From positions 1-46,505 of the forward strand of contig JACCQO010000025.1 of NCBI GenBank assembly GCA_015709205.1: a DNA stretch of 46,505 nt, written 5' to 3'. Each line of letters opens with the position of its first letter. Position 1 is the first letter of the stretch. Shown piece after piece: positions 22,243-36,706 of this stretch. The notes under the pieces are model-generated. The model was not told the origin of the DNA. It searched no databases and was given only the letters and a program-made list of their open reading frames with translations. A program made the translations under genes and the position numbers. Source of the DNA: Desulfovibrionaceae bacterium. Lineage in GTDB: Bacteria > Desulfobacterota > Desulfovibrionia > Desulfovibrionales > Desulfovibrionaceae.

Positions 22243-23580
22243 TTAGCCCTCGTAGGACTTGAGCTTGCGCCACAGGGTCGTGCGCGGGATGCCCAGGATC
22301 TGCGAGGCCAGCCCCTTGTTGTAGCCGGTCTTCTCCAGCACGCGCAGGATGTAGCGCTTCTCCATCTCCTCCATGGACAGGAGGCCGTCGCCCTCCACGG
22401 TGGCGAACTCCAGTTCCTGCAGGTCCGCGGGCAGGTCCTGCACGCGGATCTGTTCGCCGTCGGTCAGGGCCACGGAGCGCTCCACGATGTTCTCCAGCTC
22501 GCGCACGTTGCCCGGGAAGCTGTAGCGCATGAGCACATGCAGGGCCTGGGGCTCGATGCCTTCGACCTTCTTGCTGAAGGCCAGGCTGTACTTCTGGATG
22601 AAGTGCTTGACGAGCAGGGGGACGTCCTCGCGGCGGTCGGACAGGGCGGGCAGGGCGATGGAGACCACGTTGAGGCGGTAGAAGAGGTCCTCGCGGAAGG
22701 TGCCCTCGGCCACCTCGTGCTTGAGGTCCTTGTTGGTGGCCGCGATGAGGCGGATGTCCAGCTCCACGGGGCGCACCCCGCCCACGCGCAGGATGCGCCG
22801 CTCCTGGATGACGTGCAGGAGCAGGACCTGCATGTTCAGGGGCATCTCGCCGATCTCGTCCAGGAAGACCGTGCCCCCGGCCGCGGATTCCAGGAGCCCG
22901 ACCTTGGTGGCCTGGGCCCCGGTGAAGGCCCCCTTTTCGTAGCCGAAGAGCTCGCTGCTGATCAGTTCGTCCGTGAATCCGCCGCAGTTGAAGGACACGA
23001 AGGGCTTGGAGCTGCGCGGGGAGTTGCGGTGGATGGCCTCGGCCACCAGGGCCTTGCCCGTGCCGCTCGCGCCCTCCAGGAGCACGTTGCAGTCCACGGG
23101 CGCGACCTTGCGGATCACGGAGTAGAGCTTCTGCATGGCCGGGCTGGCCCCGACCATGCGGTTCAGCCGTCCGTCCTGGATGGCCTCGCGCAGCCGCTCG
23201 TTCTCGCGCCGCAACAGGACCTTGTCCAGGGCCGTGCGCGCCAGCAGGCGCACGTCCTCCAGCTGCATGGGCTTGGTCAGGTAGTGGTAGGCCCCGTTCT
23301 TGATGGCCTCCACCGCGCCCTCGATGGTTCCGTAGCCGGTGATGATGATCACCTCGGCACCGCCGTGCACGGCCTTGATGCGTTGCAGGAGGTCCAGGCC
23401 GTTGACGTCCGGGAGCATGAGGTCGAGGAAGACCACGTCGAAGGGCGCGGCGGTCATGCGTTCCAGGAAGCGCTGGCCGAACTGGAAGGTCTCGGTCTCG
23501 TAGCCCTCCTTGCTCAGGGTCTGGCCGAGGCGGCGGCACACGGTCAGTTCGTCGTCCACCACGGCGATGCGGCAGGTCAT
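22243..23580 (-). CDS. Sigma-54-dependent response regulator (NtrC family)
   Basis: A 445-aa activator: receiver domain (1-120; acidic Asp9/Asp10, phospho-acceptor Asp53 in VVFLDLMLPD, Lys103 in LTKP), AAA+ domain (about 140-375; Walker A GASGTGKA at 170-177, GYEKGAFTGA with the sigma-54-contacting GAFTGA at 217-222, Walker B VFLDEIGEM) and a Fis-type helix-turn-helix at the C terminus (GYNKGLASQILGIPRTTLWR). The Walker A box has Ala where GESGTGKE has Glu at two places; the core GTGK is intact. Its ATG overlaps the kinase stop (ATGA). The candidate targets are the paired TGTTCCA-N3-TGGAACA sites before the divergent operon at 25613. Confidence 0.93.
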   Translation of the reverse strand: MTCRIAVVDDELTVCRRLGQTLSKEGYETETFQFGQRFLERMTAAPFDVVFLDLMLPDVNGLDLLQRIKAVHGGAEVIIITGYGTIEGAVEAIKNGAYHYLTKPMQLEDVRLLARTALDKVLLRRENERLREAIQDGRLNRMVGASPAMQKLYSVIRKVAPVDCNVLLEGASGTGKALVAEAIHRNSPRSSKPFVSFNCGGFTDELISSELFGYEKGAFTGAQATKVGLLESAAGGTVFLDEIGEMPLNMQVLLLHVIQERRILRVGGVRPVELDIRLIAATNKDLKHEVAEGTFREDLFYRLNVVSIALPALSDRREDVPLLVKHFIQKYSLAFSKKVEGIEPQALHVLMRYSFPGNVRELENIVERSVALTDGEQIRVQDLPADLQELEFATVEGDGLLSMEEMEKRYILRVLEKTGYNKGLASQILGIPRTTLWRKLKSYEG

Positions 23581-25133
23581 TGCGGCTCCTTGAAGGTGTC
23601 GGGGGGAGTGCCTGGGGGAGTGCCGGGGGCCGGATCCGGCTCCGCGGGTTCGGTGCGCACGGCGGGGAGGTAGATGGAAAAGACCGTGCCGCCGTCGGGC
23701 TCGCTCTGTACCTCGATGCGGCCGCGGTGGCGGCGCACCAGGGAATAGGTCACGGCCAGCCCCAGCCCGGTGCCCTGGCCCACGCGCTTGGTGGTGTAGA
23801 AGGGCTCGAAGATGTGCTGCATCTGCTCCTCGGACATGCCCTTGCCCGTGTCGCGGATGTCCACGCGCACGCCCTCGCCGGAGCGGTGCGCGCCCAGGGT
23901 GATGGTTCCGCCTTCCTCCATGGCCTGGATGGCGTTGAGGATCAGGTTCATGAAGGCCTGTCCCAGGTTGCGCGCGTTGCCCGCCACGCGCGGCAGGTCG
24001 CGCTCCAGGTCGGCCCGGAGGGTGACGTTGTTGACCATGAGCTGGTTCTTGAGCAGGCCGATGGTGTCCTGGATCACGTCGAGGATGGACAGGGGCGTGA
24101 ACGAGGGCTGCTCGGTGCGCGAGAAGTCCAGGAGATCCTTGACGATCTCGCCAGCGCGCTCGGACTGGGTGATCAGGTCGCCGAGCATTTCCGTGGCCTC
24201 GGCGTCCAGGGTTTCGCCGTAGTCCTCCACCAGGGCCTGGGCCGTGATGGAGATGTTGTTGAGCGGGTTGTTCAGCTCGTGGGCGATGCCCGCGGTGAAG
24301 GTGCCCAGGGCGGCCATCTTGCGGGCCTGGAGCAGGTCCTCCTGGTTGACCTCCAGCTCCTGGGCCATGCGGTTCAGGGCGCAGAGCAGGTCGTGGATCT
24401 CGTCGTGCTCCATGCCCTCGCAGGAGACCGGGCTGAAGTCGCCCCGGGCCACGCGCCGGGTGACCTGGGACACGGCGGCCAGGGGCTTGAGCAACCGGCT
24501 GAAGAGCAGCTTGCCCAGCAGGACCATGAGCAGCACGAAGACCGCCAGGAAGAAGAAGGGCAGGATCGAGGTGCGCAGGATGGCGCTGTGGATGCGCGCG
24601 CGCTTGGTCTTGAGCAGCCCGTCCACGTACTGGAGCATCTCCTTGCCCAGGGCGCGGATGCGCTCGCCCACGGCCAGAGCCGGGTCGGTCCCGGGCGCGT
24701 TGCTTCTCACGGCCGGGGCCGCGTCGCCCGCCTCCGCCTCCGCCGTCGCGCGCACGGTCATGGCGTGGAACTGCTGCGCCAGGTGCTTGTAGGCCGTCAG
24801 GTCGTTGCGGAACCGGGTAAAGCGCTCCGCGCTGGACACGGCCACGATGTCCTCGGCCAGCTCGTCGCTCAGGACCTCGATCTTGTCCAGAAAGCCGAGC
24901 TGGTCCGCCAGGCTCTCGGGGTCGTGGAAGTAGAGCAGGTTCTTCTCGAACCGGCGCACCTCCAGGATGGACTTGAGCAGGTCGTCGTAGCGTTCGCTGG
25001 TCAGCAGCCTGCCGCGTACGATGTACAGGCTGGCCACGCTCCACAGGGTCAGCATGCAGATGGACACGAAGGTCACGGCGAAGAGGATGACGACCTTGCC
25101 GCGGATGGTCTGGGTCAGTTGGCGCAAGCGCAT
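23577..25133 (-). CDS. Membrane-bound sensor histidine kinase
   Basis: A 518-aa kinase with transmembrane segments at about 13-36 and 190-212. They enclose a periplasmic, mainly helical sensor region of about 150 residues, followed by a HAMP domain, a HisKA domain with His285 in FTAGIAHELNNPLN, and an HATPase domain (N box NLILNAIQAM, G boxes DTGKGM and GQGTGLGLAV). A short Pro-rich tail follows. The ATG at 25133 begins MRLRQLTQTIRGKVV, a basic segment before the first helix; the Arg-rich upstream frame is not supported. It is translationally coupled to the sigma-54 response regulator, its presumed partner. The ligand is unknown; the periplasmic part lacks a Cys or haem motif. Confidence 0.92.
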   Translation of the reverse strand: MRLRQLTQTIRGKVVILFAVTFVSICMLTLWSVASLYIVRGRLLTSERYDDLLKSILEVRRFEKNLLYFHDPESLADQLGFLDKIEVLSDELAEDIVAVSSAERFTRFRNDLTAYKHLAQQFHAMTVRATAEAEAGDAAPAVRSNAPGTDPALAVGERIRALGKEMLQYVDGLLKTKRARIHSAILRTSILPFFFLAVFVLLMVLLGKLLFSRLLKPLAAVSQVTRRVARGDFSPVSCEGMEHDEIHDLLCALNRMAQELEVNQEDLLQARKMAALGTFTAGIAHELNNPLNNISITAQALVEDYGETLDAEATEMLGDLITQSERAGEIVKDLLDFSRTEQPSFTPLSILDVIQDTIGLLKNQLMVNNVTLRADLERDLPRVAGNARNLGQAFMNLILNAIQAMEEGGTITLGAHRSGEGVRVDIRDTGKGMSEEQMQHIFEPFYTTKRVGQGTGLGLAVTYSLVRRHRGRIEVQSEPDGGTVFSIYLPAVRTEPAEPDPAPGTPPGTPPDTFKEPQ

Positions 25134-25440: not shown

Positions 25441-25457
25441 TGTTCCAGCGTGGAACG
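25441..25457. promoter_or_regulatory. Activator site UAS1, TGTTCCA-N3-TGGAACG
   Basis: The motif TGTTCCA-GCG-TGGAAC has 6-bp perfect arms (25442-25447 and 25451-25456). Its centre is 41 bp from UAS2, about four helical turns, and about 148 bp before the inferred start site. That placement is typical for NtrC-family hexamer assembly. Confidence 0.7.
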
Positions 25458-25481
25458 ACGCGCCTGAAATGCCGCACATCG

Positions 25482-25498
25482 TTTTCCATATTGGAACA
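25482..25498. promoter_or_regulatory. Activator site UAS2, TTTTCCA-N3-TGGAACA
   Basis: The second copy of the 17-bp motif, with one mismatch in the left arm and an AT spacer (TAT). Centre about 107 bp before the inferred start site. UAS1, UAS2 and the perfect copy at 22101-22117 share TTCCA-N3-TGGAAC. Confidence 0.7.
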
Positions 25499-25541
25499 AG
25501 CGGTCCGCCTCGGCCCGGTCCGCTGTCCGGTCCTCCTCAAA

Positions 25542-25554
25542 AAAATATTTGATT
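25542..25554 (-). promoter_or_regulatory. IHF-like bending site
   Basis: On the minus strand AATCAA-ATAT-TTT matches WATCAA-N4-TTR except the last base, next to an A-tract (25538-25545). It lies between UAS2 and the -24/-12 promoter, where IHF normally bends DNA to bring the activator to sigma-54 polymerase. Confidence 0.5.
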
Positions 25555-25571
25555 GCGGCCTGTTGCCCGCG

Positions 25572-25586
25572 TGGCACCGTCGTTGC
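25572..25586 (+). promoter_or_regulatory. Sigma-54 (-24/-12) promoter
   Basis: TGGCAC (25572-25577), five bases, then TTGC (25583-25586), an exact match to the sigma-54 consensus. Transcription is expected at about 25597, 16 nt before the first ATG of the operon. With UAS1, UAS2 and the IHF-like site this forms a complete NtrC-type control region. Confidence 0.88.
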
Positions 25587-25612
25587 TTTGGCCCGGGCAA
25601 GCGAGGAGACGC

Positions 25613-26053
25613 ATGGAGAAGATTCTTGTCGGCATGCACGCCGCGCACTGCGGCTGGGAAGCGCTTTCCAGGGCGCTGTCCCTGGCCGGGCGCATGGAGG
25701 CGGTGGTCTACGTGCTCCTGGTGAAGTCCGCCGAGGAGCACGGGCCCGCGGCCATGCGCGACCAGGAGCTGGAGCGGTCGCTGCGCGCGCGCATCGACCA
25801 GGCCCAGCAGCCCGGGCGCGTGCCTCCCGGCCGGGTGCAGCTTTTCACGGCCGCGGGCAATTACGAGGAAGAGGTCGTCGGGTTCGCGAATCGGTACAGG
25901 ATCACGCTGCTGGTGGCGGAGACCGCGGAGTCCGAGTCCGGCGGCGCGCACAGGGGGCCCTCGGCCATGGACAGGATCCGGCACCGGCTGCGCTGCCGGG
26001 TCGAGCTGGTGGCCCCGAAACGACGCACAACCACACGAGGGAACGAGCAATGA
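25613..26053 (+). CDS. Small Usp-like (Rossmann-fold) protein
   Basis: A 146-aa cytoplasmic protein with the layout of a universal stress protein: first strand MEKILVGMHAAHCGWEALSRAL, a second strand AVVYVLLVKS, a third VQLFTAAGNYEEEVVGFA, and RYRITLLVAET. The terminal ATP-binding G-2x-G-9x-GS is absent (only MDRIRHRLRCRVELVAP), so nucleotide binding is doubtful. ATG 25613 follows GAGGAG by 5 nt and is the first start after the sigma-54 promoter. It overlaps the permease gene by four bases (ATGA). Its role in the operon is unknown; a regulatory partner for the permease or the kinase-like paralogues is possible. Confidence 0.78.
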   Translation: MEKILVGMHAAHCGWEALSRALSLAGRMEAVVYVLLVKSAEEHGPAAMRDQELERSLRARIDQAQQPGRVPPGRVQLFTAAGNYEEEVVGFANRYRITLLVAETAESESGGAHRGPSAMDRIRHRLRCRVELVAPKRRTTTRGNEQ

Positions 26054-26991
26054 GCATTTCGATGGATTTGTACCTGCCCATCGCGGGCAACGCCATGAAC
26101 ATCTTCGCCGTGCTGGGCCTGGGCGGGCTCGTGGGGTTGCTCTCGGGCATCTTCGGCGTGGGCGGCGGGTTCCTGATGACCCCGCTGCTGATCATGCTGG
26201 GCATTCCGCCCACGGTGGCCGCGGCCTCGGACTCCAACCAGATCGTGGGCGCGTCCACCTCGGGCACCCTGGCCCACTTCCGGCTCGGCAACGTGGATTT
26301 CAAGATGGGCGTGCTGCTGCTGGTCGGCGGCGTGGTCGGCGGCACCGGCGGCGTCCAGGTCATCAAGATTCTGCGCGCCATGGGCAACGCCGACTTCCTG
26401 ATCAACGCCACCTACGTGGTCATGCTCGGGCTCATCGGCGGCTACATGTTCTACGAGTCCCTGGCGTCCATGCGGGCCTCCAAGGCCCCCCGGAGCGCCG
26501 CCAAGAAGGCGCCGGCCAAGCCCTCGCGCTACGGCCGCATGCTCCAGGCCCTGCCCTGGCAGACAGACTTCCCGCGTTCGGGCGTGCGCATCTCCCTGCT
26601 CATGCCCCTGGTGCTCGGCGGCTTCGTGGGCGTGCTCGCGGCCATCATGGGCGTGGGCGGCGGCTTCATCATGGTCCCGGTGATGGTCTACCTGCTGCGC
26701 ATGCCCATGCACGTGGTCGTGGGCACGAGCCTGTTCCAGATCCTGTTCACCTGCATGAACGTGACCATCATGCAGGCGGCCACCAACCACACCGTGGACT
26801 TCGTGCTCGCCCTGCTGCTGCTCATCGGCTCGGCCGTGGGCGCGCAGTTCGGGGCCAAGATCGGCAAACGCCTGTCCGGCGACCACCTCAAGATCTTCCT
26901 GGCCACCCTGGTGCTCGTGGTCATGGTCAAGATGCTCTACGGCCTGCTGGTGCGCCCGGACGTGCTGCTGGCCTACGCGGGAGGGCACTAG
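26050..26991 (+). CDS. TauE/SafE-family membrane permease (DUF81)
   Basis: A 313-aa polytopic protein with two homologous halves typical of TauE/SafE. The repeats GLLSGIFGVGGGFLMTPLL (about 27-45) and GVLAAIMGVGGGFIMVPVM (about 198-216) are the family hallmark, each followed by a PxxVAxxxxSxxIV or MxxVVGTSLFQI block. A hydrophilic, Lys-rich loop (MRASKAPRSAAKKAPAKPS) joins the halves. Family members move sulfite, sulfoacetate or other organosulfur anions. In a sulfate reducer a sulfur oxyanion is tempting but unproven. It begins inside the end of the upstream gene and is followed after one base by the Alph_Pro_TM gene. Confidence 0.9.
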   Translation: MSISMDLYLPIAGNAMNIFAVLGLGGLVGLLSGIFGVGGGFLMTPLLIMLGIPPTVAAASDSNQIVGASTSGTLAHFRLGNVDFKMGVLLLVGGVVGGTGGVQVIKILRAMGNADFLINATYVVMLGLIGGYMFYESLASMRASKAPRSAAKKAPAKPSRYGRMLQALPWQTDFPRSGVRISLLMPLVLGGFVGVLAAIMGVGGGFIMVPVMVYLLRMPMHVVVGTSLFQILFTCMNVTIMQAATNHTVDFVLALLLLIGSAVGAQFGAKIGKRLSGDHLKIFLATLVLVVMVKMLYGLLVRPDVLLAYAGGH

Positions 26992-26992
26992 A

Positions 26993-27787
26993 ATGAAGAC
27001 GCTCAAGATCCTCTTTCCCCTGGCCTGCGCGCTGGCCTGCATCCTGGTGCTGGCCGTCCTGGCCGGTCCGGCCCGCGCCGCCGGGACCGAGCTCCTGGTC
27101 CAGCCCGAGTCCGTGCGCATCGGCACCTTCTACGACGGCGCGACCCTCACGGTCACGGGCGAGGTCCCGGCGGGCAGCGACGTGGTCGTGACCTTCGAAG
27201 GCAAGTCCGACGACCTGCACATGAAGCGCAAGGGCAAGGCGCTCGGCCTGTTCTGGATGAACATGGGCTCCGTGACCATCACCCACGCCCCGAGCGTGAG
27301 CCTGACGTGCGCCACCCGGCCCCTGGCCGAGCTGGCCGCGGGCAAGGGCGCGGACGCCGCGCTGGGCCTCGGTGAACTGCGCGGCGAGATCGGCATCGAG
27401 CCCTCCGGCCCGGACGACGCCATGCTCTTCGACGAATTCGTCAAGCTCAAGCGCGGCGAGGGCCTCTACAAGGAGACCGTGGGCAACGTGGAAATGGCCG
27501 CCGGGCCCGAGGGAAGCGCGGACGCGGCCACCTTCACGGCCACCGTGGACCTGCCCTCGCGCCTGGCCCCCGGCCCCTACCTGGTGCACGCCGTGGCCCT
27601 GAAGGACGGCGTGGTCGTCTGGCGGGGCAACGCGCCCGTGCAGGCGGAGCTGGTGGGCACGCCGAAGTTCATCGCGGATTTGGCCTTCAACCACGGCGCG
27701 CTCTTCGGTATCCTGGCGACGGTCGTCGCCATCCTCGGAGGCCTGATCATCGGCTGGCTCTTCCAGGGGGCGTCCGGAGCGCATTAA
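26993..27787 (+). CDS. Alph_Pro_TM / TIGR02186-type membrane-anchored extracytoplasmic protein
   Basis: A 264-aa protein with an N-terminal signal (hydrophobic stretch to about residue 27, ending GPARAA), a beta-rich extracytoplasmic part and one C-terminal transmembrane helix (ALFGILATVVAILGGLIIGW). Family features are ELLVQPESVRIGTFYDGATLTVTG, DVVVTFEGK, and GLFWMNMGSVTI. This family is commonly found beside TauE/SafE permeases, as here (1-bp gap), so a partner or substrate-handling subunit for the permease is likely. The central alpha segment FDEFVKLKRGEGLYKE is also characteristic. The biochemical role is not established. The next gene follows after 18 bp. Confidence 0.85.
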   Translation: MKTLKILFPLACALACILVLAVLAGPARAAGTELLVQPESVRIGTFYDGATLTVTGEVPAGSDVVVTFEGKSDDLHMKRKGKALGLFWMNMGSVTITHAPSVSLTCATRPLAELAAGKGADAALGLGELRGEIGIEPSGPDDAMLFDEFVKLKRGEGLYKETVGNVEMAAGPEGSADAATFTATVDLPSRLAPGPYLVHAVALKDGVVVWRGNAPVQAELVGTPKFIADLAFNHGALFGILATVVAILGGLIIGWLFQGASGAH

Positions 27788-27805
27788 CCAACCAAGGACA
27801 AGCAC

Positions 27806-30565
27806 ATGGCCGGTCTGAAGGACGCGCTGCACCGCCTCTTGCACCGGGAGCCCGAAGTGGGCTTCTCGGTCCGTTACCAGGAGTTCCGCACCCTGCTGGA
27901 GCGCAACAACCGCATCCAGGAACTCATGGCCGACATGGGCGACAAGCTCAGCGGCGAGTACGTCTTCGACCGCCAGTACATCCACAGCGCCTGCGACGAG
28001 CTCGGCGATCTGGTCCTCAAACAGATCGCCGAGCTCAGCGCGTTGCGCCAGGCCGTGACCCGCAAGGGCGACGACGCCCTGTTCGTGGCCTTCGACCGCG
28101 TCCAGCGCGCCCTGCAGGACGAGCTGGCGGGCCGCCGCCACTTCGGCGGCGGGCCGCGGGTGCTTTCCCTGGACGAGATAACCCTGGACCGGAGCGACGA
28201 GGTGGGCCGCAAGAACGCGGTGCTGGGGTTGGCGCGCAACGTGCTGGACCTGCCCACGCCGGACGGCTTCGCGGTCTCCTTCCGGGCGCACCGCGAGTTC
28301 TGGGAGGCCAACGGCCTGGGCGAGGCCGTGCGCGCGGCCGAGGCCCGGCTGGACGCGCTGGCGGGCCGCCCGGCCGCGGAGTGGGCCGTGGCCCTCAAGG
28401 AGGTTTCGGCCGAGATCCGCGAGCGCGTGCTCGCGGGCCAGGTGCCCAAGGCCCTGGCCCAGGAGATCCACCGCGCCGCGCGCCACGTGGCCCGGCGCTC
28501 CGTCGCGGCCACGGACCGGCTGGAGGTGCCCGTGCGCGAGACGCCCGTGACCTTCGCCGTGCGCTCCAGCGCCTGGGAGGAGGACGAGGCCCCCAGCTTC
28601 GCGGGCCAGAACCTGACTCTGCTCAACGTGGGGGCCGACGACCTGGCCGAGGCCTACAAGCGCGTGCTCGCCGGGGCCTACTCGCGGCGCTGCTGGCTCT
28701 ACCGCCGCAACCGGGGCATGCGCTCGGACGAGGCCGCCGTGGCCGTGGGCATGCACCGCATGGTCGATGCGCGCGTCAGCGGCGTGCTCTACACCCTGGA
28801 CCCCGCGCCGCCCGCGTGCGGCCCCGCGACGGCCGCCGAGACCTGCGCCGGTCCGACCGTCGATCCGGCCGCCGATCTGGCCGCCGCGCCGGGCGCGGCC
28901 GCCGGGCGCGCCATCCTGGTCAGCGCCACCTGGGGGTGCGGCGCGGCCGTGACCGACGGCAGCGCGCCCGTGGATTTCTTCCGCCTGGAGCGCGAGCACC
29001 CGCACCGCGTGCTGGAGTCGCGCATCGCCGTGAAGGCGCGGCGCATGGCCCTGGCCCCGGACGGCGGCCTGGAGGAGGCCGAGGTGGAGCCGGAGCTGCG
29101 CGAGGCCCCGTGCCTGACCCCGGAGCAGCTCGCCCGCCTGGCCGACGCGGCCCTGCTCTTGGAGCGCTACGACAAGCGGCCCCAGGACATGGAATGGGCC
29201 TTCGACCGCGAGGGGCGGCTGGTGGTGCTCCAGGTCCGGCCCCTGGCGCTGGAGCAGGCCGGGCCGGAGGCCTGCCCGGACATCGAGGCGGCCACGCGCA
29301 ACCACGAGGCGCTCTTCACCGGCCGGGGCCTGGTGGCCCAGCGCGGGGTGGGCATGGGCCGCGTCTTCGTGCTCCGCGACCTGGAGCGCATGGACGAGGT
29401 GCCCCAGGGGGCCGTGCTGGTCACGCGCTTTCCCTCGCCGCGCCTGTCGCGCGTCATGCGCCGCGTGCACGGCATCGTCACCGAGCTGGGCTCGCCCACC
29501 GGGCACCTGGCGACCATCGCGCGCGAGTTCCGCGTGCCGACCGTCGTGCGCGTGGAGAATGCCACCACGCTGCTGCCCGAGGGCGAGGCCGTGACCCTGG
29601 ACGCCGAGCACGGCACGGTCTACCGCGGCGCGGTGGAGGAGCTGCGCTATTTCGAGCTGACCGAGGAGAGCGTGTTCGAGGACTCGGCCGAATACCGGTT
29701 GCTGCGCCGGGTGCTGGAGCGCATCACGCCCCTGACGCCCATGGAGGGCGGGGATTCGGCGCTGCGGCCCGGCGTGCTGCCCGAGCCGGACCGCTGCCGC
29801 ACCCTGCACGACATCACGCGCCACATCCACCTCAAGGCCGTGGAAAGCCTGATCGCCTACAGCGAGCGCGCGGGCAACGGCTGCCCCGCGCCCATGCGCC
29901 TGGAGACCGGCCTGCCCCTGGGGCTGGTGGTCCTGGACTTCGACGGCGGGGTGGAGCCCGGGGCCGCGCGCGCCGGGCGCGACCTGGTCTGCGCGGACAT
30001 CGCCAGCCTGCCGCTGCGCCCGCTCCTGCAGGGCATGCTCTGCACGGACATGTGGCCCCGCGACCCGGTCTCCGTGGACCTGGGCAGCTTTCTTTCCAGC
30101 TTCACGCGGACCCTGTCCTTTTCCCAGGCCGCGCCGGACAAGGTGGGCCGCAACCTGGCGGTCATCGGCCGCCGCTACCTGAATCTCGGCCTGAGGCTGG
30201 GCTACCACTCCTCCTGGATCGTGGCCCAGATCTCCGACGTGCTGGAGGAGAACTACGCGACCTTCACCTTTCTGGGCGGGGTCACGCACGTGACGCGGCG
30301 GTCGCGCCGGGCGAGGTTTCTGGCGGACATTCTGGAGCGGTTCGACTTCAGGACCGACGTGCGCGGCGACATGGTCACCGCGCGGTTCAAGAACGGCCAG
30401 CCCGCGCGCATGCAGGAGCAGTTGCGCCTGCTCGGCTGGCTGATCGGCTACACGCGCCAGCTCGACGTGCAGATGTACGACGACGAGCAGGTGGACGCCT
30501 GCGTGGCGGATTTTCTGCAACGGGTGCAAAAGAACAGGGAGGCGGGCGATGACCGCGACTGCTGA
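27806..30565 (+). CDS. PEP-synthase-like paralogue 1: ATP-grasp plus phosphohistidine domain with a non-PpsA C terminus
   Basis: A 919-aa protein. Residues 15-95 form a helical N-terminal domain (FRTLLERNNRIQELM, GEYVFDRQY). Residues 110-485 resemble the PpsA/PPDK ATP-grasp: FAVRSSAWEEDEAPSFAGQN (250-269) and QDMEWAFDREGRLVVLQVRP (about 458-477). Residues 500-615 are the PEP-utiliser mobile domain with candidate phospho-acceptor His567 in GSPTGHLATIAREFRVP (cf. GGRTCHAAI in PpsA). The PEP/pyruvate TIM barrel (GSNDxTQ, etc.) is absent. Instead, residues 630-915 form a domain shared with the two paralogues (DRCRTLHDITRH, RRYLNLGLRLGYHS). First and best-preserved of three; overlaps the receiver gene by 17 nt. 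Confidence 0.85.
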   Translation: MAGLKDALHRLLHREPEVGFSVRYQEFRTLLERNNRIQELMADMGDKLSGEYVFDRQYIHSACDELGDLVLKQIAELSALRQAVTRKGDDALFVAFDRVQRALQDELAGRRHFGGGPRVLSLDEITLDRSDEVGRKNAVLGLARNVLDLPTPDGFAVSFRAHREFWEANGLGEAVRAAEARLDALAGRPAAEWAVALKEVSAEIRERVLAGQVPKALAQEIHRAARHVARRSVAATDRLEVPVRETPVTFAVRSSAWEEDEAPSFAGQNLTLLNVGADDLAEAYKRVLAGAYSRRCWLYRRNRGMRSDEAAVAVGMHRMVDARVSGVLYTLDPAPPACGPATAAETCAGPTVDPAADLAAAPGAAAGRAILVSATWGCGAAVTDGSAPVDFFRLEREHPHRVLESRIAVKARRMALAPDGGLEEAEVEPELREAPCLTPEQLARLADAALLLERYDKRPQDMEWAFDREGRLVVLQVRPLALEQAGPEACPDIEAATRNHEALFTGRGLVAQRGVGMGRVFVLRDLERMDEVPQGAVLVTRFPSPRLSRVMRRVHGIVTELGSPTGHLATIAREFRVPTVVRVENATTLLPEGEAVTLDAEHGTVYRGAVEELRYFELTEESVFEDSAEYRLLRRVLERITPLTPMEGGDSALRPGVLPEPDRCRTLHDITRHIHLKAVESLIAYSERAGNGCPAPMRLETGLPLGLVVLDFDGGVEPGAARAGRDLVCADIASLPLRPLLQGMLCTDMWPRDPVSVDLGSFLSSFTRTLSFSQAAPDKVGRNLAVIGRRYLNLGLRLGYHSSWIVAQISDVLEENYATFTFLGGVTHVTRRSRRARFLADILERFDFRTDVRGDMVTARFKNGQPARMQEQLRLLGWLIGYTRQLDVQMYDDEQVDACVADFLQRVQKNREAGDDRDC

Positions 30566-31091
30566 CGACGAACGGAACGGTGTCAATGAGATAGGCGGGA
30601 CAGGCGGGACTGGTGGGACTGGCAAGACAGCCGAGTCCGGCGGGCCCGGCGGAACGGGCGCGCACCGGCGGCGCATCCTCATCCTGGACGACGAGCCCAT
30701 CGTCTGCAAGCGGCTGCGGCCCGCGTTCCAGAAGGCGGGCTACGAGGTGGAGGTCTTCACGGACAGCGCCACGGCCATGGACGCCGTGCGCGGGCGCGAC
30801 TTCGACATCGTGATCACGGACCTGAAGATGGAGGGCACGGACGGCATGCGTTTTCTCACGGCGGTCAAGGAGCGGCGTCCGCGCACGGAGTGCATCGTGA
30901 TCACGGGCTTCGCCACCCTGGAGACGGCCAAGGAGTCCTTCCGCAAGGGGGCCTACGACTTCGTGGCCAAGCCCTTCAAGCTCAGCGACATCATGGCCGT
31001 GGTCCGGCGGTTGGAGCAGGAACGGTTCGGCGACCCCGACGGCGGGCAGCCGGGCCAGATCCAGTCCGAACCGGGTGAAAAGGACGCCTAG
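30549..31091 (+). CDS. Stand-alone response-regulator receiver protein
   Basis: A 180-aa protein with one CheY-like receiver (about 42-160): acidic pair Asp47/Asp48 (LILDDEP), phospho-acceptor Asp91 (IVITDLKMEG), Thr119 and Lys141 (VAKPFK). No DNA-binding output domain follows; the C-terminal 25 residues are a polar tail. The N-terminal 35 residues are a Gly/Thr-rich linker built of 9-bp tandem units (GGT-type repeats at about 30594-30640). It starts inside the end of paralogue 1 and lies between two PEP-synthase-like genes. It probably controls one of them by protein contact, or acts as a phosphate relay or sink; its cognate kinase may be the one encoded at 23577. Confidence 0.88.
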   Translation: MTATADDERNGVNEIGGTGGTGGTGKTAESGGPGGTGAHRRRILILDDEPIVCKRLRPAFQKAGYEVEVFTDSATAMDAVRGRDFDIVITDLKMEGTDGMRFLTAVKERRPRTECIVITGFATLETAKESFRKGAYDFVAKPFKLSDIMAVVRRLEQERFGDPDGGQPGQIQSEPGEKDA

Positions 31092-31100
31092 CCCCGCGCC

Positions 31101-34004
31101 ATGGCCGCCCGCCGCCCACCCCTCGGCCGCCGCAGGCGCCAGGCCCCGCCCGGGGCCGAGGCCGTGCGTTCGCTCTTCTCCAAGTTCCGGCGCATCCTGG
31201 AGCTGAACACCCGCGCCCTGGAGACCATGGCCGAGATGGAGCGCGCCCTGGGCGGCGACTACATCTTCGACCAGGCCTTCCTGGAAAAGTCCGTGACCCG
31301 CCTGGCCACCCTGGCGCACCAGGTGGTCTACAGCCTCAACGCCCTGTCCGGCGACCGCCACCTGGCCCTGCTGGACCGCTACCAGGCCGTGCGCACCGCG
31401 CTGCTGGACGTGCTCGCGGGCGGCCTGGGCCCGGCGGCCGGGGCCCTGGTCCTGGACCTGGACGAGGTGCACTGGGAGATGGCCCCGCTCACCGGGCTGC
31501 GCGCCGTGTGCCTGGCCGAGGCGCGCCGCCAGGCCGGAGTGCTCGGGGTGCGGCCGCCGGACGGCTTCGTGGTCACGGCGGCCGGGTGCGCGGCGCTGCT
31601 GGAGGTTCCGGGCGCGGGCGGCGGCGCGGGCGGCGGCGCAGGCAGGGGCACGGTCGAGAGCGTGGCCGACCATCTGGCCGGGCTGGCGCGCGAGGGCGTG
31701 GCTGGGCCCGGGCTGGCGGCCATGGCCGCGCGGCTGGTGCGCAGGGTCGAGGTCCCCGAAGCGCTGGCGCGGGCCCTGGCCGACGGGGTGCGCGATCTTT
31801 TCGCCCGGCGCGGCGGGCCGTGCGCCCTGCACGTGGCCGTCGGCCCGGCAGGCGGCGGCCACGGGGCGCGGGCCGCGTGGACCGCGCCGGGCCGCCGCCG
31901 CGCGAACGTGGCCCCGGAGGACCTGCACGCGGCCCTGCTGGACTGTTTGGCGGACGGCGTGGCCGAGGCCCTGGAGCGGGCGGACGGTGCGCCCGGCGCG
32001 CCCGATGCGCTCGCTACGGCCGGTGCCGACGGCGCGCCGCTCCTCGGGCAGTGGGCCGTGGCCGTGACCGCCTGGGAACCGGGCCGCGCGGCCGGGCGCG
32101 TGCGCACCCTGACGGCGGCCCCGGGCGGCCGCGACGCCGTGGAGGTGCTCGTGGGCCCGGCCGAGGCCCCGGGGACTCTGGGCCTGGACGCGGCGGCCGA
32201 ATCTCCGGTGCCGGGAGGCGGGCCGGGAGGGGCCGGGTCCGAGGCCGGAACCGGGGCCGGGGCCGAGCCTGAGGCCGGGCCCGTGGAACGCTACCTGCTG
32301 CGGCGCACCCCGCCGCACGAACTGGTCTTTTCGCGCATCGCGCCCAAGCCCCTGGAATCGGCCCGGCGCACCCTGGCCAGCCTGGCCGCGGGCGAGGGGC
32401 TGCGCCCGGGCGCGGCGCTGCTGTCCCTGGCGCGGCTCACCGGGCTGGCTGCGGCGGCCATGGGGCTGGAGCGGCTGCTCGGCCTGCCCCAGGAAATCCT
32501 GTTTACGGACAACGGCCGCGACGGCGCGGCCGTGCTCGACGTGCGCCCCCTGCCCAGCGCCTGGGGCGAGGAGCCCTCGGCCGCGGAGCTGGAGGCCCTG
32601 GAGCGCGAGCTGGCCGGGGCGCGGGTGCTGCTTTCCGGCGGCGAGACCGCGCAGTCCGGCGTGGCCGCGGGCCGCGTGGTGCACGTGGACGCGGAGACCC
32701 CGGCCGAGACGTTTCCCCTGGGCGGCGTGGCCGTGGCGCGTTTCGCCGCGCCGCAGCTCAGCCCGCTGCTGCGCCGCGCCGCGGCCCTGGTCACCGAGGT
32801 GGGCGGGACCATGGGCCACCTGGCGACCATCGCCCGCGAATACCGCGTGCCCGCCGTGGTCGGCGCGTCCGGCGCGTTGGCCCGGCTGCCCCAGGGCGCG
32901 GAGGTCACCGTGGACGCCGAGGAGGACGTGGTCTACGCTGGCGCGTTGCAGGCCCTGCTGCGCTTCCGCGCCTCGGGCGTGGAGCTCTACCCCACGGACC
33001 CGGAATACGTGCGGCTGCGTCTGCTGCTGCGGCTGATCACCCCCCTGCACCTGCTGGACCCCGAGTCTCCGGAGTTCGCGCCCGAACACTGCCGCAGCGT
33101 GCACGACCTGATCCACTTCGCGCACGAGCGCGCCGTGGGCGAGCTGCTGGACATGCAGGCGCGCCTGGAGCGGCGGGGCGGCGGCGCGCACGTGCTGCGC
33201 GCGCGGCGGCTGGACCTGGACGTGCCCCTGGACGTGCGCGTGCTCGACGTGGAGGGCGCGACCATCGCGCCGCTGGAGGCCGATACGGCGGATTCCGGGC
33301 CGCTGACCCTGGACCGGGTCCGCTGCATCCCCCTGCGCGCCTTTGCGCGCGGGCTGTCGCTGACCGGGATGTGGAACGACGAGCCGCGCGACCTGCGGCT
33401 GCGCGACGTGTTCCTGGCCATGGGCCGCAACACCGCCGTGCTCCCGGGCCAGACGCCCTTCGCCGGGCGGAACCTGGCCATCGTGGGCGGCTCCTATCTG
33501 AATCTCAGCCTGCGTCTCGGCTACCACTTCAGCGTGGTGGACGCCTTCGTTGCCGACAACGCGGACCAGAACACCGTGTATTTCCGCTTCGTGGGCGGCC
33601 TGGCCGATGAGCGCCGCCGCCGCCGCCGCGCCGAGCTGATCCGCACGATCCTGGACGGCCTGGAGTTCAGCGTGGCGGTCAAGGGCGACCTGGTGGTCGG
33701 GCGGCGCAAGTACGGCGAGCGCGCGGCCATGGAAGCCGTGCTCGCGCGCTTGGGCGCGCTCACGGCCTTCACCCGCCAGCTCGACGTGGCCATGCGCGAG
33801 GAGGACGACGTGCGGCGGCTCTCGGATCTCTTCGTGGACCGGCTCCTGGGGCGCGGCGCGGAGACGGCGAACGAGCCCGATCCGAACGCGACCGGCACGA
33901 ACGCGACCGGCACGAACGCGACCGGCACGAACGCGACCGGCACGAACGCGATCGACACGAGCGAGTCCGGCACGAACGCGCGGCCAAAGGACGGGCGGCC
34001 GTGA
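31101..34004 (+). CDS. PEP-synthase-like paralogue 2, with degenerate ATP-grasp region
   Basis: A 967-aa paralogue. The N-terminal helical domain (FRRILELNTRALETM, GGDYIFDQAF) and the C-terminal shared domain (EHCRSVHDLIHFAHERA, GGSYLNLSLRLGYHFS) align well with the neighbours, and the mobile domain keeps His573 in GGTMGHLATIAREYRVP. The nucleotide-binding part does not: the RSS motif is replaced by an Ala/Gly/Arg-rich stretch around residues 235-280, and the QDxEW block reads QEILFTDNG. Long Ala/Gly-rich low-complexity inserts occur (about 170-182 and 360-392), and the tail is a 15-bp minisatellite (NATGT repeats). Probably a pseudo-enzyme that receives phosphate from a partner or acts as scaffold. 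Confidence 0.82.
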   Translation: MAARRPPLGRRRRQAPPGAEAVRSLFSKFRRILELNTRALETMAEMERALGGDYIFDQAFLEKSVTRLATLAHQVVYSLNALSGDRHLALLDRYQAVRTALLDVLAGGLGPAAGALVLDLDEVHWEMAPLTGLRAVCLAEARRQAGVLGVRPPDGFVVTAAGCAALLEVPGAGGGAGGGAGRGTVESVADHLAGLAREGVAGPGLAAMAARLVRRVEVPEALARALADGVRDLFARRGGPCALHVAVGPAGGGHGARAAWTAPGRRRANVAPEDLHAALLDCLADGVAEALERADGAPGAPDALATAGADGAPLLGQWAVAVTAWEPGRAAGRVRTLTAAPGGRDAVEVLVGPAEAPGTLGLDAAAESPVPGGGPGGAGSEAGTGAGAEPEAGPVERYLLRRTPPHELVFSRIAPKPLESARRTLASLAAGEGLRPGAALLSLARLTGLAAAAMGLERLLGLPQEILFTDNGRDGAAVLDVRPLPSAWGEEPSAAELEALERELAGARVLLSGGETAQSGVAAGRVVHVDAETPAETFPLGGVAVARFAAPQLSPLLRRAAALVTEVGGTMGHLATIAREYRVPAVVGASGALARLPQGAEVTVDAEEDVVYAGALQALLRFRASGVELYPTDPEYVRLRLLLRLITPLHLLDPESPEFAPEHCRSVHDLIHFAHERAVGELLDMQARLERRGGGAHVLRARRLDLDVPLDVRVLDVEGATIAPLEADTADSGPLTLDRVRCIPLRAFARGLSLTGMWNDEPRDLRLRDVFLAMGRNTAVLPGQTPFAGRNLAIVGGSYLNLSLRLGYHFSVVDAFVADNADQNTVYFRFVGGLADERRRRRRAELIRTILDGLEFSVAVKGDLVVGRRKYGERAAMEAVLARLGALTAFTRQLDVAMREEDDVRRLSDLFVDRLLGRGAETANEPDPNATGTNATGTNATGTNATGTNAIDTSESGTNARPKDGRP
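33885..33974 (+). repeat. 15-bp in-frame tandem repeat in the tail of paralogue 2
   Basis: Four exact copies of AACGCGACCGGCACG (33885-33944) are followed by two degenerate copies, encoding NATGT-NATGT-NATGT-NATGT-NAIDT-SESGT. It lies 30 bp before the next start codon. Frame-neutral slippage could vary the linker length between strains. Confidence 0.92.
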
Positions 34005-36706
34005 CCCTCCATCCCCTGCAAAAGGCCGCGCGCGCCGCGCAGCGGCTGGCCGGGGCCTGGTCCGCGCGCCGCCGCCGCCGCGCCGAGGCCGTGCTCGACG
34101 AGCTCAAGCTCCGCTACCACGCCTTCCGCGCGCTCCTGGCGGACAACGACCGCGCCCTGGACCTGCTCAACGACCTGGACGTGAAGACGCGCACGGCCGC
34201 GCGCGGCGGCGCGGCGCTCTCCGGCGAGATCGAGGAGCTGCTGCACGTGACCTACGAGATGGTCGATGGCCTGAACCGGCTGGACGAGTTTCGCCACGAA
34301 TCCCTCTACGAGCGCCACGAGCGGCTCGCCGAGCGCATCCGCGCCCTGGCGAGCGCGACCTCGCCCCGGGCCCGGGAGGCCGCGCCCTGCGTGCCGCTTT
34401 CCGCCCTGGGCCTGCGGGACCGCGCCCTGGCGGGCGGCAAGGCCGCGGCCCTGGGGCGCATGGCGCGCACCGGGCTGCCCGTGCCCGAGGGCTTCGCCAT
34501 CACGGCCGACGCCGGGCGGCGGCTGCTCATGGACACCGGGCTGAGCTTCGCCCTGCGCAACCGGCTGCGGCGGCTGGAGGGCGAGCCGCCGAGCCCGGCC
34601 CAGGTGCGCGAGCACGCCGACGCCATGGGGCGCGAGATCATGGCCGCGGCGCTGCCCGAGCCGCTGCGCGCGGCCATCGCCGAGGCCTACGCGGCCCTGC
34701 GCGGGCCGGACGGCGCGGACGCGCCCGTGTCCGTGCGCTCCAGCGCCGTGGTCGAGGACGGGGCCGAGCACTCCTTTGCCGGGCAGTTCGAGAGCGTGCT
34801 CAACGTGGTCGGCGTCGAGGGAGTGGTCGCGGCCTACAAGAAGGTCCTGGCCAGCAATTGCAACGGCCGCTCCATCGTCTACCGGCTGCACCACGGGTTG
34901 CCCCTGGCGGATTTCGACATGGCCGTGCTCGTGCAGCGCATGGTGGACGCGCGCGCGGCCGGGGTGCTCTTCACCGTGGACCCGCGCGACGGCGCGGGCG
35001 GCCGCATGCTCCTGAGCGCGGCCCCGGGCGTGGGCGTGGGCGTGGTGGACGGCGACGCGCCCGTGGACGTGTACGCCCCGCCGCGCGCCGACCCGGACGG
35101 GGACGTGGAGCGCCGCGTGGCGCACAAGGACGTGCGCCAGGTCTGCGCCGGGGGCGGGGGGTTGCGCGCCGAGCCCGTGCCCGAGGCCGAGGCCGACGCG
35201 CCCCTGCTGGACGAATCCGAGGTGCGCGCGCTGGCCGGGTTCGGGCGGCTGGCCGAGAGCCTGTTCGGCGGGCCGCAGGACCTGGAATGGGCCGTGGACC
35301 GCGCCGGGCGGCCCTGGCTGCTGCAGTCGCGGCCCCTGCGGTTGCCGCCGCGCTCCGGCGCGCGGCCGCAACCGCTGCACGGGCGCACGCTCTTTTCGGG
35401 CGGCACGCCGTCCTCGCCCGGGCGGTGCATCGGCCGGGTCCGGCTGGTGCGCGACGCGGCCGACCTGGAGCGGCCCGCGCAGGGGCCGGAGGTGGCCGTG
35501 ATGCACCAGAGCCTGGTGCGCGCGGCGCGTTTCCTTCCAGTCTTTGCAGGCGTGGTCGTGGAGCTGGGCAACCCGGCGGACCATCTTTCCTCGGTGGCGC
35601 GCGAATACGCTCGGCCCATGCTCTGCGGTGCGGCCGGGATCATGGGGATTCTGTCGGAGGGCCGCTGGGTGCTGCTCGACGTGGAGGCCGGGGTGGTCCA
35701 GGAGGTGGACGAGGCCCTGGGGCTCGAGGCCGAATCCGTGTGGCGCGCGGAGCAGGCCCGGCCCTTGGCCGAGGGCGCGGCGTCCGGAGCGGCTTCGGGG
35801 AACCCGGCCCTGTCGCCGGAACTCGACGAACTGCGCTCCCTGCTCGTGCGCCTGAACCTCACGGACGCCTACGGCCCGACGTTCTCGATCATGGAGTGCC
35901 GCTCCCTGCACGACGTGGTGCGCTACGCACACGAAAAGGCCGTGCTGGCCATGTTCGAGGGCGGCGACCTGATGCTCGACGAGGCCGAATCCCTGGTGCA
36001 CCGGCTGGACGCGGGCATCCCCTTCCATTTCTTCATCATCGACCTGGGCGGCGGCCTGGGGCCGGACGTGGCGTCCATGAAGATCTCCATCGAGGACGTG
36101 CGCTCCCAGCCGTTCCTGGCCCTGTGGCAGGGCATCACCGCGCCGGGCCTGGCCTGGAACCGGCCGCCCCCGGCCGCCAACCTCTCGGGCCTGTTCGCGC
36201 GCAACCTGGTGGACGCGGGCGGCGCGCGGCCCCTGGGCTCCTTCAACTACGCCCTGGTCACGCGCGACTACCTGAACCTCAACGCGCGCGTGGACTACCA
36301 CTTCGCCATGGTCGATGCCGTGTGCGGGCCCGTGGCGCGGGAGAACTACGTGCGCTTCCGCTTCAAGGGCGGCGGCGCGGAGCTGCGCCAGCGCGAGCGC
36401 CGCGCGCGCTTCCTGGCCCTGGTGCTGCGCGAGCACGGTTTCTTCACGGACCGGCGCGGCGACCTGCTGACCGCCTCCCTGGCCGACGCGGACCGCGAGG
36501 CCGCCACCGGACGGCTGAACATGCTCGGCCGTCTGCTCTGCTTCAGCCGTCTGCTGGACGCGGGCATGCTCGACGAAAAGGCCCCGGAGCGCGTGGCCGA
36601 GGCCTTTTTGCGCGGCGACTACGCCCTGGCCAACCTGAGCGGGACGGACGACGCGGCGGACGCGGAGCCGGAGGCCGGGCAGGGCGGCGGCGCGATTGCG
36701 CCGTAG
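34001..36706 (+). CDS. PEP-synthase-like paralogue 3
   Basis: A 901-aa paralogue starting at GTG 34001, overlapping the previous stop (GTGA). The N-terminal helical domain (YHAFRALLADNDRALDLL) is followed by an intact ATP-grasp: VSVRSSAVVEDGAEHSFAGQ with Arg246, and QDLEWAVDRAGRPWLLQSRP. The mobile domain carries His528 in GNPADHLSSVAREYARP, with Asp rather than the Gly/Cys that usually precedes the histidine. The C-terminal domain again matches the siblings (MECRSLHDVVRYAHEKA, TRDYLNLNARVDYHFAMV), and no PEP/pyruvate barrel is present. Last gene of the sigma-54 operon; it ends 7 bp from the convergent phosphatase gene with no obvious terminator between them. Confidence 0.84.
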   Translation: MTLHPLQKAARAAQRLAGAWSARRRRRAEAVLDELKLRYHAFRALLADNDRALDLLNDLDVKTRTAARGGAALSGEIEELLHVTYEMVDGLNRLDEFRHESLYERHERLAERIRALASATSPRAREAAPCVPLSALGLRDRALAGGKAAALGRMARTGLPVPEGFAITADAGRRLLMDTGLSFALRNRLRRLEGEPPSPAQVREHADAMGREIMAAALPEPLRAAIAEAYAALRGPDGADAPVSVRSSAVVEDGAEHSFAGQFESVLNVVGVEGVVAAYKKVLASNCNGRSIVYRLHHGLPLADFDMAVLVQRMVDARAAGVLFTVDPRDGAGGRMLLSAAPGVGVGVVDGDAPVDVYAPPRADPDGDVERRVAHKDVRQVCAGGGGLRAEPVPEAEADAPLLDESEVRALAGFGRLAESLFGGPQDLEWAVDRAGRPWLLQSRPLRLPPRSGARPQPLHGRTLFSGGTPSSPGRCIGRVRLVRDAADLERPAQGPEVAVMHQSLVRAARFLPVFAGVVVELGNPADHLSSVAREYARPMLCGAAGIMGILSEGRWVLLDVEAGVVQEVDEALGLEAESVWRAEQARPLAEGAASGAASGNPALSPELDELRSLLVRLNLTDAYGPTFSIMECRSLHDVVRYAHEKAVLAMFEGGDLMLDEAESLVHRLDAGIPFHFFIIDLGGGLGPDVASMKISIEDVRSQPFLALWQGITAPGLAWNRPPPAANLSGLFARNLVDAGGARPLGSFNYALVTRDYLNLNARVDYHFAMVDAVCGPVARENYVRFRFKGGGAELRQRERRARFLALVLREHGFFTDRRGDLLTASLADADREAATGRLNMLGRLLCFSRLLDAGMLDEKAPERVAEAFLRGDYALANLSGTDDAADAEPEAGQGGGAIAP

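Follow-up and report, generated by a model that had tools for sequence, protein, structure and literature searches.

The stretch analyzed here, called the window throughout, comprises positions 1 to 46,505 of contig JACCQO010000025.1 from a Desulfovibrionaceae bacterium (GenBank assembly GCA_015709205.1). A gene pair for a sensor histidine kinase and an NtrC-type response regulator (22243-25133, minus strand) lies divergent from seven genes on the plus strand (25613-36706), in the order Usp-TauE-Alph_Pro_TM-PEP1-REC-PEP2-PEP3. REC is a stand-alone receiver, and PEP1, PEP2 and PEP3 are large paralogues that resemble phosphoenolpyruvate (PEP) synthase. Neighboring genes among the seven overlap or are <20 bp apart, a spacing from which they are predicted to form a single operon. 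We suggest, tentatively, that the PEP proteins and the receiver make up a phosphotransfer switch acting on the TauE permease. An earlier note on this DNA had already described the divergent pair and the seven-gene operon, and the domains and coordinates agree with that description. The extent that it gave, 23577-36706, takes in the operon and the kinase but leaves the regulator gene (22243-23580) outside; likewise, it named the permease, the Alph_Pro_TM protein, the three paralogues and the receiver, but not the first gene, Usp. The genes are as follows.

22243-23580, minus strand: NtrC-type response regulator, 445 amino acids (aa); PF00072 receiver, PF00158 sigma-54 AAA and PF02954 Fis HTH domains
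23577-25133, minus strand: sensor histidine kinase, 518 aa; HAMP, HisKA and HATPase_c domains; 4-bp overlap with the regulator gene
25613-26053, plus strand: Usp-like (universal stress protein), 146 aa; PF00582, E 7.7e-7; first gene of the operon
26050-26991, plus strand: TauE/SafE (TSUP) permease, 313 aa; PF01925, E 1.5e-48
26993-27787, plus strand: Alph_Pro_TM protein; PF09608, E 4.4e-41
27806-30565, plus strand: PEP1, 919 aa; helical N-terminal region, ATP-grasp domain, mobile domain and a C-terminal domain of no known family
30549-31091, plus strand: stand-alone receiver (REC), 180 aa; PF00072, E 1.1e-27; acceptor Asp91 at codon 30819-30821
31101-34004, plus strand: PEP2, 967 aa; architecture as PEP1; ATP-grasp residues lost, phosphohistidine retained
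34001-36706, plus strand: PEP3, 901 aa; architecture as PEP1; ATP-grasp residues and His retained
36714-37505, minus strand: convergent PPP-type metallophosphatase; PF00149; tenth gene of the full module

A family related to PEP synthase

What kind of proteins are PEP1, PEP2 and PEP3? The mobile domain, PF00391, is matched by all three, in line with the phosphohistidine-type mobile domains first proposed for them, and the predicted phosphohistidine of PEP1 is His567 (codon 29504-29506). PF01326 (PPDK_N) is matched by PEP1 and PEP3 and not by PEP2. The PEP/pyruvate-binding C-terminal domain has no Pfam match in any of the three, and none reaches the cut-off of the TIGR01418 equivalog for PEP synthase (249.9 against 739.75 for PEP1). 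The C-terminal domain that is found instead begins at about residue 611 of PEP1. Scanned alone in 24 members, it gave no credible match in Pfam or NCBIfam, the best scores being E 0.12 and E 0.033, respectively, each in one member, and no match among PDB sequences at E ≤10. Judged by these profiles, an unmatched domain takes the place of the PEP/pyruvate domain, and PEP1-3 are not PEP synthases.

The residues expected of an ATP-driven phosphohistidine protein are largely preserved. The mobile-domain His is present in 24/24 members of the smaller set and in 165 of 166 family proteins, and the ATP-grasp Lys, Arg, Glu and Gln, which we take to be the catalytic residues of PEP synthase and pyruvate phosphate dikinase (PPDK), are kept in 157-159 of the 166. 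PEP1 and PEP3 have them and PEP2 does not. Within the C-terminal domain, His668, Asp669, His675 and His801 occur in 165-166 of 166. The ATP site is degenerate in eight of the 166 proteins. Seven of these, the window's PEP2 among them, retain the His, and the eighth, L049_3953, lacks it and has a broken-looking open reading frame. In each of the six full cassettes (our name for the window's gene set and the related full sets described below), the second PEP gene is one of these seven, and the remaining one is in locus L068; the neighbors of the seven in the tree, which include genes in L146 and in genome G101 (locus L057), are not themselves degenerate. The C-terminal tail of PEP2 also contains a tandem NATGT repeat (33880-33960) that is absent from the two PEP2-type relatives compared.

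An AlphaFold2 model of PEP1 (56 sequences; mean predicted local distance difference test score, pLDDT, 85) consists of the helical N-terminal region, the ATP-grasp domain, the mobile domain and a mixed alpha/beta C-terminal part. Foldseek ranked PEP synthase, rifampin phosphotransferase and PPDK as the best matches to this model and also matched HpeI; the part of the model aligned was not given, and some of the alignments have low TM-scores over ~900 columns. Across the ATP-grasp and mobile domains, PEP synthase, rifampin phosphotransferase and the HpeI entry 9goj are all matched by the family profile, and the family's mobile domain matches Enzyme I of the PEP-dependent phosphotransferase system (PTS). 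The window's genome encodes at least eight family members (three in the operon and five elsewhere) and has nine matches to the C-terminal profile; a relative, G047, has up to twelve matches to this domain, and 78 of 198 genomes have matches to the profile. L001, another PPDK_N protein of the window's genome, fails to align with the C-terminal domain of the family and may be the ordinary enzyme. Thus, the phosphotransfer suggested in the earlier note keeps its parts (the ATP-grasp residues, the His and the acceptor residues of REC), while its comparison with PEP synthase/PPDK enzymes does not extend to the proteins being such enzymes.

The receiver, the permease and the Alph_Pro_TM protein

The acceptor site of REC (acidic pair, Asp, Thr and Lys) is invariant in 14/14 sequences. 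The permease scores 166 bits against the PF01925 cut-off of 32.6 and is 64-79% identical to its counterparts in 10 cassette relatives. The Alph_Pro_TM protein is above the cut-off for PF09608 (141.6 versus 24.5) and below that for the TIGR02186 equivalog (75 versus 255.25 bits). Its AlphaFold2 model (pLDDT 93) has a helix at residues 4-23, a strand-rich, beta-sandwich-like middle and a helix at residues 235-258, and on this model the protein is taken to be membrane-anchored and extracytoplasmic. The protein has no match in the PDB at E ≤0.001, and the best-scoring entries are varied beta-rich proteins.

Conservation of the gene set

Gene order was compared in two samples: 15 stretches that surround Alph_Pro_TM genes in other genomes, and the best 80 of at least 592 loci found by TauE alignment. 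Outside the window, genes were labeled with small profiles made from cassette members. The order TauE-Alph_Pro_TM-PEP-REC recurs repeatedly in both samples. Among the best 80 of the at least 592 loci, TauE adjoins Alph_Pro_TM in 77; 65 of the 80 have at least 3 kb beyond Alph_Pro_TM, and in these a PEP gene comes next in 39 and PEP plus REC in 37 (L095 was counted as having no PEP gene solely through its overlapping genes). Most of these best 80 loci belong to delta-proteobacteria (Desulfobacterota), Nitrospirae or Alphaproteobacteria, and a few to Acidobacteria, Planctomycetota, Latescibacterota and Myxococcota. No PEP gene was seen in the alphaproteobacterial loci among them, and the PEP C-terminal domain is absent from six of six alphaproteobacterial genomes and one of nine others (8/15 positive). 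Within the phylum, a sample of 297 genomes contained 51 with Alph_Pro_TM.

The full nine-gene set occurs in five other loci (L044, L055, L061, L064 and L119); L061 and L119 are from uncultured delta proteobacteria and L064 is from Desulfobulbus sp. Tol-SR. Genome G101 has a near-full set in which Usp was undetected and the kinase and regulator genes lie within the run: TauE, Alph_Pro_TM, PEP1, REC, kinase, regulator, PEP2-like, PEP3-like (44% identity) and the convergent phosphatase. The neighborhood comparison called for in the earlier note therefore finds all nine genes together in some relatives but not as a rule, and the four-gene core TauE-Alph_Pro_TM-PEP-REC is much commoner than the full set.

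Nor are nine genes the complete set, because the convergent PPP-type phosphatase is a tenth gene of the full version. Searches with tblastn located it in six of the fetched loci, namely the five full cassettes, where it lies beside PEP3, and L146, where it lies beside two PEP genes in a stretch in which no TauE, Alph_Pro_TM or REC gene was found. In G101, it adjoins the PEP3-like gene. Across 198 genomes of the phylum, the best four matches (50-100% identity) all adjoin PEP genes; the other matches listed are ≤50% identical, none was seen beside the listed PEP genes, and they look like a common family of the phylum. The motifs GDxHG, GNH(E/D) and GH, which we take to be the PPP-type phosphatase motifs, are kept wherever the sequence is complete. 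Past the phosphatase gene, at 37849-39225 on the minus strand, is a gene for a DUF4147/MOFRL protein, presumably of the glycerate kinase type.

Other genes can follow TauE-Alph_Pro_TM. For example, L088, L093, L098 and other Nitrospirae loci have a ~285-aa Usp gene in place of PEP. The alphaproteobacterial loci L132 and L136 have a CcdA-like gene (labeled by eye) at this position, and L133 and L124 do not.

PEP genes away from the cassette

Do PEP genes keep similar company elsewhere? Sixty non-cassette loci were chosen among the listed matches to the C-terminal profile, with known cassettes excluded and contig ends counted as misses. A TauE gene is within 5 kb of the PEP gene in 35 of the 60, versus ~3.4% expected. 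The expectation is based on 121 Pfam TauE matches, with split and sub-threshold matches counted, in ~48.9 Mb of 15 picked genomes, and the two figures differ in method, TauE near PEP having been identified with a custom profile and the expected rate with Pfam TauE. This association is consistent with the proposed tie to anion transport; the sulfur oxyanion suggested as the TauE substrate is a guess.

Receivers are also frequent neighbors. In the non-cassette loci, 20 of 75 PEP genes have a stand-alone receiver gene as their immediate neighbor on the same strand, as opposed to 12 of 361 unlabelled genes, and in TauE-anchored loci the corresponding counts are 32/47 and 15/465; one of the ten rows of the receiver profile (L041) is out of frame and contains a stop. 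In the non-cassette loci, 39 of 72 PEP genes have a kinase gene no more than 3 kb away, the totals of 72 and 75 reflecting different edge filters.

Two further subtypes of TauE were observed. L181 has a second subtype, beside a DUF4881 gene and with a sigma-54 activator (weak Cache match) and a PEP gene. L177, L180, L182 and L198 resemble L181 by gene order, the Pfam scan having covered L181 alone. In 20 genomes, DUF4881 has two matches, both beside TauE (G006 and G014). L185 and L187 have a third subtype, with one or more receivers, a 424-428-aa TauE and an unmatched 228-249-aa protein with a hydrophobic start, followed by PEP. It may be that every subtype of TauE pairs with a different membrane-anchored protein.

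A predicted sigma-54 switch upstream of the operon

All the parts of an NtrC-type, sigma-54-dependent switch are present at the locus: a regulator with receiver, AAA and Fis HTH domains, in whose sequence the GAFTGA motif is readable, a kinase, paired sites and a −24/−12 element. The regulatory features are as follows.

25441-25457, plus strand: operator palindrome 1, TGTTCCAGCGTGGAACG; one mismatch to TGTTCCA-N3-TGGAACA
25482-25498, plus strand: operator palindrome 2, TTTTCCATATTGGAACA; one mismatch; starts 41 bp after the start of palindrome 1
25542-25554, minus strand: IHF-like site, weak; one mismatch; 6 such matches in the window versus 3 expected
25572-25586, plus strand: sigma-54 element TGGCAC-N5-TTGC, exact; 0.09 expected in the window
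22080-22139, no strand given: terminator-like hairpin, 60 nt, between an FdhE-like gene (weak match) and the regulator gene

The paired sites and the exact promoter element had been reported before and were found again, as was the IHF-like site reported with them, which is weak. With up to two mismatches allowed, the operator pattern has 3 matches in the window versus 0.02 expected, and with up to one mismatch the 4.25-Mb genome contains three copies, every one inside the window. Two of these are upstream of the operon. The third, a perfect copy at 22101-22117 that was not named earlier, forms the tip of the hairpin at 22080-22139, which has a folding energy of −48.4 kcal/mol (z −10.2). It is conceivable that this hairpin is a regulated or protein-bound terminator. 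Of 18 relatives examined, eight have a divergent kinase-regulator pair, and none of the eight has a strong operator copy (at least 13/14) downstream of the regulator gene; the third copy was therefore rejected as a conserved part of the system. In relatives with the regulator gene in tandem, the operators themselves are located between that gene and the operon.

Paired sites recur in relatives when scored as TGTTYCA-N3-TGRAACA, 30-100 bp apart. They are found upstream of 19 of 39 cassettes that have both PEP and regulator genes (20/40 with the window, which was removed by hand from the group of 40 to give the 39-cassette counts), compared with 4 of 2097 control windows from the same loci. The count is 3/12 for cassettes with PEP and no regulator seen, 0/13 for those with a regulator and no PEP, and 1/26 for those with neither, the lone case being L065, whose contig ends early. 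Half of the PEP-plus-regulator cassettes show no paired site at the threshold used. The 24 paired-site spacings fall at 39-42 bp (nine), 61-68 bp (seven), 74 bp (one) and 80-89 bp (seven), which are roughly whole numbers of helical turns. A promoter element TGGCAY-N5-TTGC with all 10 scored positions is present in 16/39 PEP-plus-regulator cassettes (17/40 with the window), versus 1/12 for PEP without a regulator and 1/1252 controls. The window's regulator is 68 and 66% identical to its cassette relatives in G040 and G190, and in a search of seven genomes its best full-length match outside cassettes was 49% identical, with partial matches of up to 50%. Because the operator occurs in this genome only at the locus, and because paired sites and promoter recur in relatives, these sequence comparisons support a sigma-54 switch dedicated to the operon, as the earlier note had proposed.

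Genetics of a related cluster

A cluster of similar composition has been studied genetically. The "nitrate cluster" of Desulfovibrio (DVU0251-DVU0245 and Dde_0597-0605) encodes, according to the accessible parts of its description (Korte et al. 2014, PMC4001038), a TauE-like permease, a conserved hypothetical protein, a PtxB-like periplasmic protein, a histidine kinase, a receiver, a PPDK_N/mobile-domain protein and a phosphatase. The statement in the earlier note that no pathway of this composition had been described thus has to be given up, since this cluster combines TauE, a kinase, a receiver and a PEP-like protein. In D. vulgaris, insertions in DVU0251 (TauE), DVU0250, DVU0247 (REC) and DVU0246 (PEP-like) allow growth in 100 mM nitrate, and an insertion mutant of DVU0245 is still nitrate-sensitive (PMC4001038). 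The latter result makes polarity an unlikely explanation for the effect of the DVU0246 insertion in D. vulgaris, if the order of DVU0246 and DVU0245 is as their locus numbering implies. The kinase gene DVU0248 is annotated as a pseudogene, which the authors leave open, and preliminary data gave an isolated DVU0248 mutant little or no advantage; the authors suggested a leaky thiosulfate transporter (PMC4001038). The accessible genetics thus place TauE, REC and PEP-like genes in one pathway in a cluster whose composition resembles that of the window.

A proposed mechanism and its alternatives

How might the module work? The account that we favor, and hold tentatively, is that an ATP-driven phosphotransfer switch derived from PEP synthase runs or gates a TauE anion permease. 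The membrane kinase would sense a signal and phosphorylate the NtrC-type regulator, which would bind the two palindromes and activate the sigma-54 promoter. Expression of the operon would then supply the TauE permease together with Alph_Pro_TM as its membrane-anchored partner, as well as Usp and the PEP/REC machinery. PEP1 and PEP3 would phosphorylate their own mobile-domain His from ATP, as PEP synthase does, with no domain for transfer to pyruvate. The phosphate would then pass to Asp91 of REC, to the new C-terminal domain, or to both, and the phosphorylated state may turn on or gate the permease. PEP2, whose ATP site is not intact, could be a phosphate carrier or a pseudokinase partner fed by PEP1 and PEP3, and the convergent phosphatase may reset the system. 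We infer in this account the enzyme activities, the direction of phosphotransfer, the control of the permease, the anion and the role of the phosphatase. Two considerations lead us to prefer it. First, the PEP proteins appear able to make phosphohistidine from ATP but not PEP, and REC appears able to accept phosphate. Second, TauE, PEP and receiver genes co-occur most widely, and the nitrate-cluster genetics join the same three. The D. vulgaris kinase data, as far as they are accessible, also lean toward a PEP protein as the donor for REC.

Several points weigh against this account. Receivers are not exclusive to PEP genes: in the non-cassette loci, kinase genes adjoin a receiver more often (39/50), and 55 of the 75 PEP genes have no directly adjacent receiver. 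Similarly, 25 of the 60 loci have no TauE within 5 kb, some of them having been cut by contig ends. The counts come from related, non-independent genomes, so that p-values overstate independence and effect sizes are what matters. In many loci, a kinase gene is beside REC, in triads of histidine kinase, REC and PEP, and REC may thus be a conventional target for a kinase. The published fitness data, in the parts accessible, include inconsistent results for DVU0250 and DVU0245, a positive value for DVU0248 in the pool (1.43), and positive nitrate fitness in D. alaskensis G20 for the kinase Dde_0602 (2.34) and the phosphatase Dde_0605 (2.08) (PMC4001038). It may well be that the kinase belongs to this pathway too; polarity in G20 is possible. 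Furthermore, the nitrate cluster has a binding protein and, in the accessible description, no reported Alph_Pro_TM; its likeness to the window is one of composition only. No biochemistry for any member was found in the literature. Together, the D. alaskensis data and the triads leave the reverse order, from kinase to REC and from REC to PEP, fully open.

That reverse order is the alternative that survives best, and we regard it as possible. The kinase would phosphorylate the stand-alone REC, and phosphorylated REC would act as an allosteric switch on the PEP protein, which would in turn phosphorylate the permease, another protein or a small molecule. The order kinase-REC-PEP in L090, L093, L102, L107, L109 and L042, the kinases near more than half of the non-cassette PEP genes, the phosphorylation residues retained by REC and the nitrate fitness gained by G20 Dde_0602 mutants all speak for it. 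On the other side, the window's kinase gene overlaps the gene for its natural partner, the NtrC-type regulator, and REC belongs to the other operon; moreover, D. vulgaris mutants of REC and the PEP-like gene resist nitrate, whereas the mutant of the putative kinase pseudogene DVU0248 gains little or nothing, according to the accessible data.

A metabolic role for the PEP proteins is unlikely, if not without merit. Rifampin phosphotransferase and HpeHI present small acceptors to a phosphohistidine; by analogy, TauE and Alph_Pro_TM would import an anion, the C-terminal domain would present it to the phosphohistidine, and the signaling genes would control supply alone. The matches of family profile and PEP1 model to PEP synthase, rifampin phosphotransferase and HpeI fit this idea, as do the active-site-like His668, Asp669, His675 and His801. 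However, at least eight members in one genome together with frequent receiver neighbors have the look of signaling, and PEP-like mutants that resist nitrate as TauE mutants do, in the published data accessible, fit control of uptake better than a later step.

It is very improbable that the proteins are ordinary PEP synthases or PPDKs for gluconeogenesis with incidental neighbors. Such enzymes would explain the PPDK_N and mobile-domain matches, but the candidate was rejected on the unmatched PEP/pyruvate domain; PEP1 also falls far under the TIGR01418 cut-off, L001, possibly the ordinary enzyme of this genome, differs in the C-terminal domain, and the synteny of the family is strong. A chance neighborhood of unrelated genes, for which no point in favor was found, is barely credible given the synteny counts and the operator statistics.

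A broader version of the favored account is doubtful but would reach further: paralogous proteins derived from PEP synthase would pass phosphate from ATP, via His, to stand-alone receivers and thereby control TauE permeases, with PEP2-type proteins as pure carriers, making up a new class of ATP-driven phosphotransfer systems, in effect a PTS without PEP. If so, the window's genome would have at least eight such proteins, and G047 up to twelve matches to their C-terminal domain.

What would these readings mean? First, the accessible 2014 report gave no mechanism for the nitrate-sensitivity cluster, and none was later found in the open-licence literature. In our comparison, this cluster appears to be one of a large family with a shared core of TauE, a PEP-synthase-like protein and a receiver; the comparison also singles out the phosphohistidine and the receiver aspartate as key residues, and predicts a path for the phosphate. 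Second, if the favored account is true, there would be an ATP-grasp route into response-regulator signaling, and receivers could be charged other than by histidine kinases. Third, it would offer a handle on the gating of oxyanion entry, including entry of the nitrate used against souring. TSUP/TauE-type permeases whose substrates are unknown are numerous in sulfate reducers, according to the accessible parts of two papers (PMC5840216, PMC4641369).

Comparison with known systems

No description of the cassette, or of a PEP-receiver partnership as such, turned up in the open-licence literature. Its composition is nonetheless partly known already through the nitrate cluster, as accessibly described, and the cassette is a variant on it. 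Both bring together TauE, a histidine kinase, a stand-alone REC and a PPDK_N/mobile-domain protein. The nitrate cluster has its own phosphonate-type periplasmic protein and a protein-tyrosine/dual-specificity phosphatase, while the window has Alph_Pro_TM, Usp, three PEP proteins, the divergent NtrC-type pair and a PPP-type phosphatase. No phosphonate-type binding protein was found among the ten window proteins scanned; one is present in L042, a locus of the same genome with the nitrate-cluster make-up (TauE, Phosphonate-bd protein, histidine kinase, REC and PEP).

In regulation, the nearest likeness is the molybdate-responsive cluster DVU0539-DVU0545, in which, according to the accessible accounts (PMC3333781, PMC10102598), a kinase/NtrC-type pair is divergent from a Usp-first operon that encodes an anion transporter and a small membrane protein. 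The binding site of its regulator has been defined, and in E. coli the regulator activates the operon promoter (PMC3333781, PMC10102598). It differs in its PSE-family transporter, and PEP proteins and a receiver are not described in those accounts. Further kinase/NtrC pairs have been reported, along with sigma-54 operons that encode anion transporters and Usp (Rajeev 2011, PMC3333781; Kazakov 2015, PMC4641369; Trotter 2023, PMC10102598, in the parts accessible). An identification of the window's regulator with DVU0539/DVU0946 is not supported: its full-length matches outside cassettes are ≤49% identical in the seven genomes searched, none of which is D. vulgaris.

In chemistry, the PEP family shares the ATP-grasp domain and the swivelling phosphohistidine domain with PEP synthase, rifampin phosphotransferase and HpeI. 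It differs from them in its unmatched C-terminal domain, its helical N-terminal region, its receiver neighbors and the lack of a PEP/pyruvate domain match. Finally, the module resembles the PTS in that a phosphohistidine protein, with a mobile domain that matches Enzyme I, is linked to transport. Its predicted donor is ATP rather than PEP, it has a receiver rather than HPr, and its permease is TauE rather than EII; by this analogy, the likeness to the PTS is one of a way of working and not of membership.

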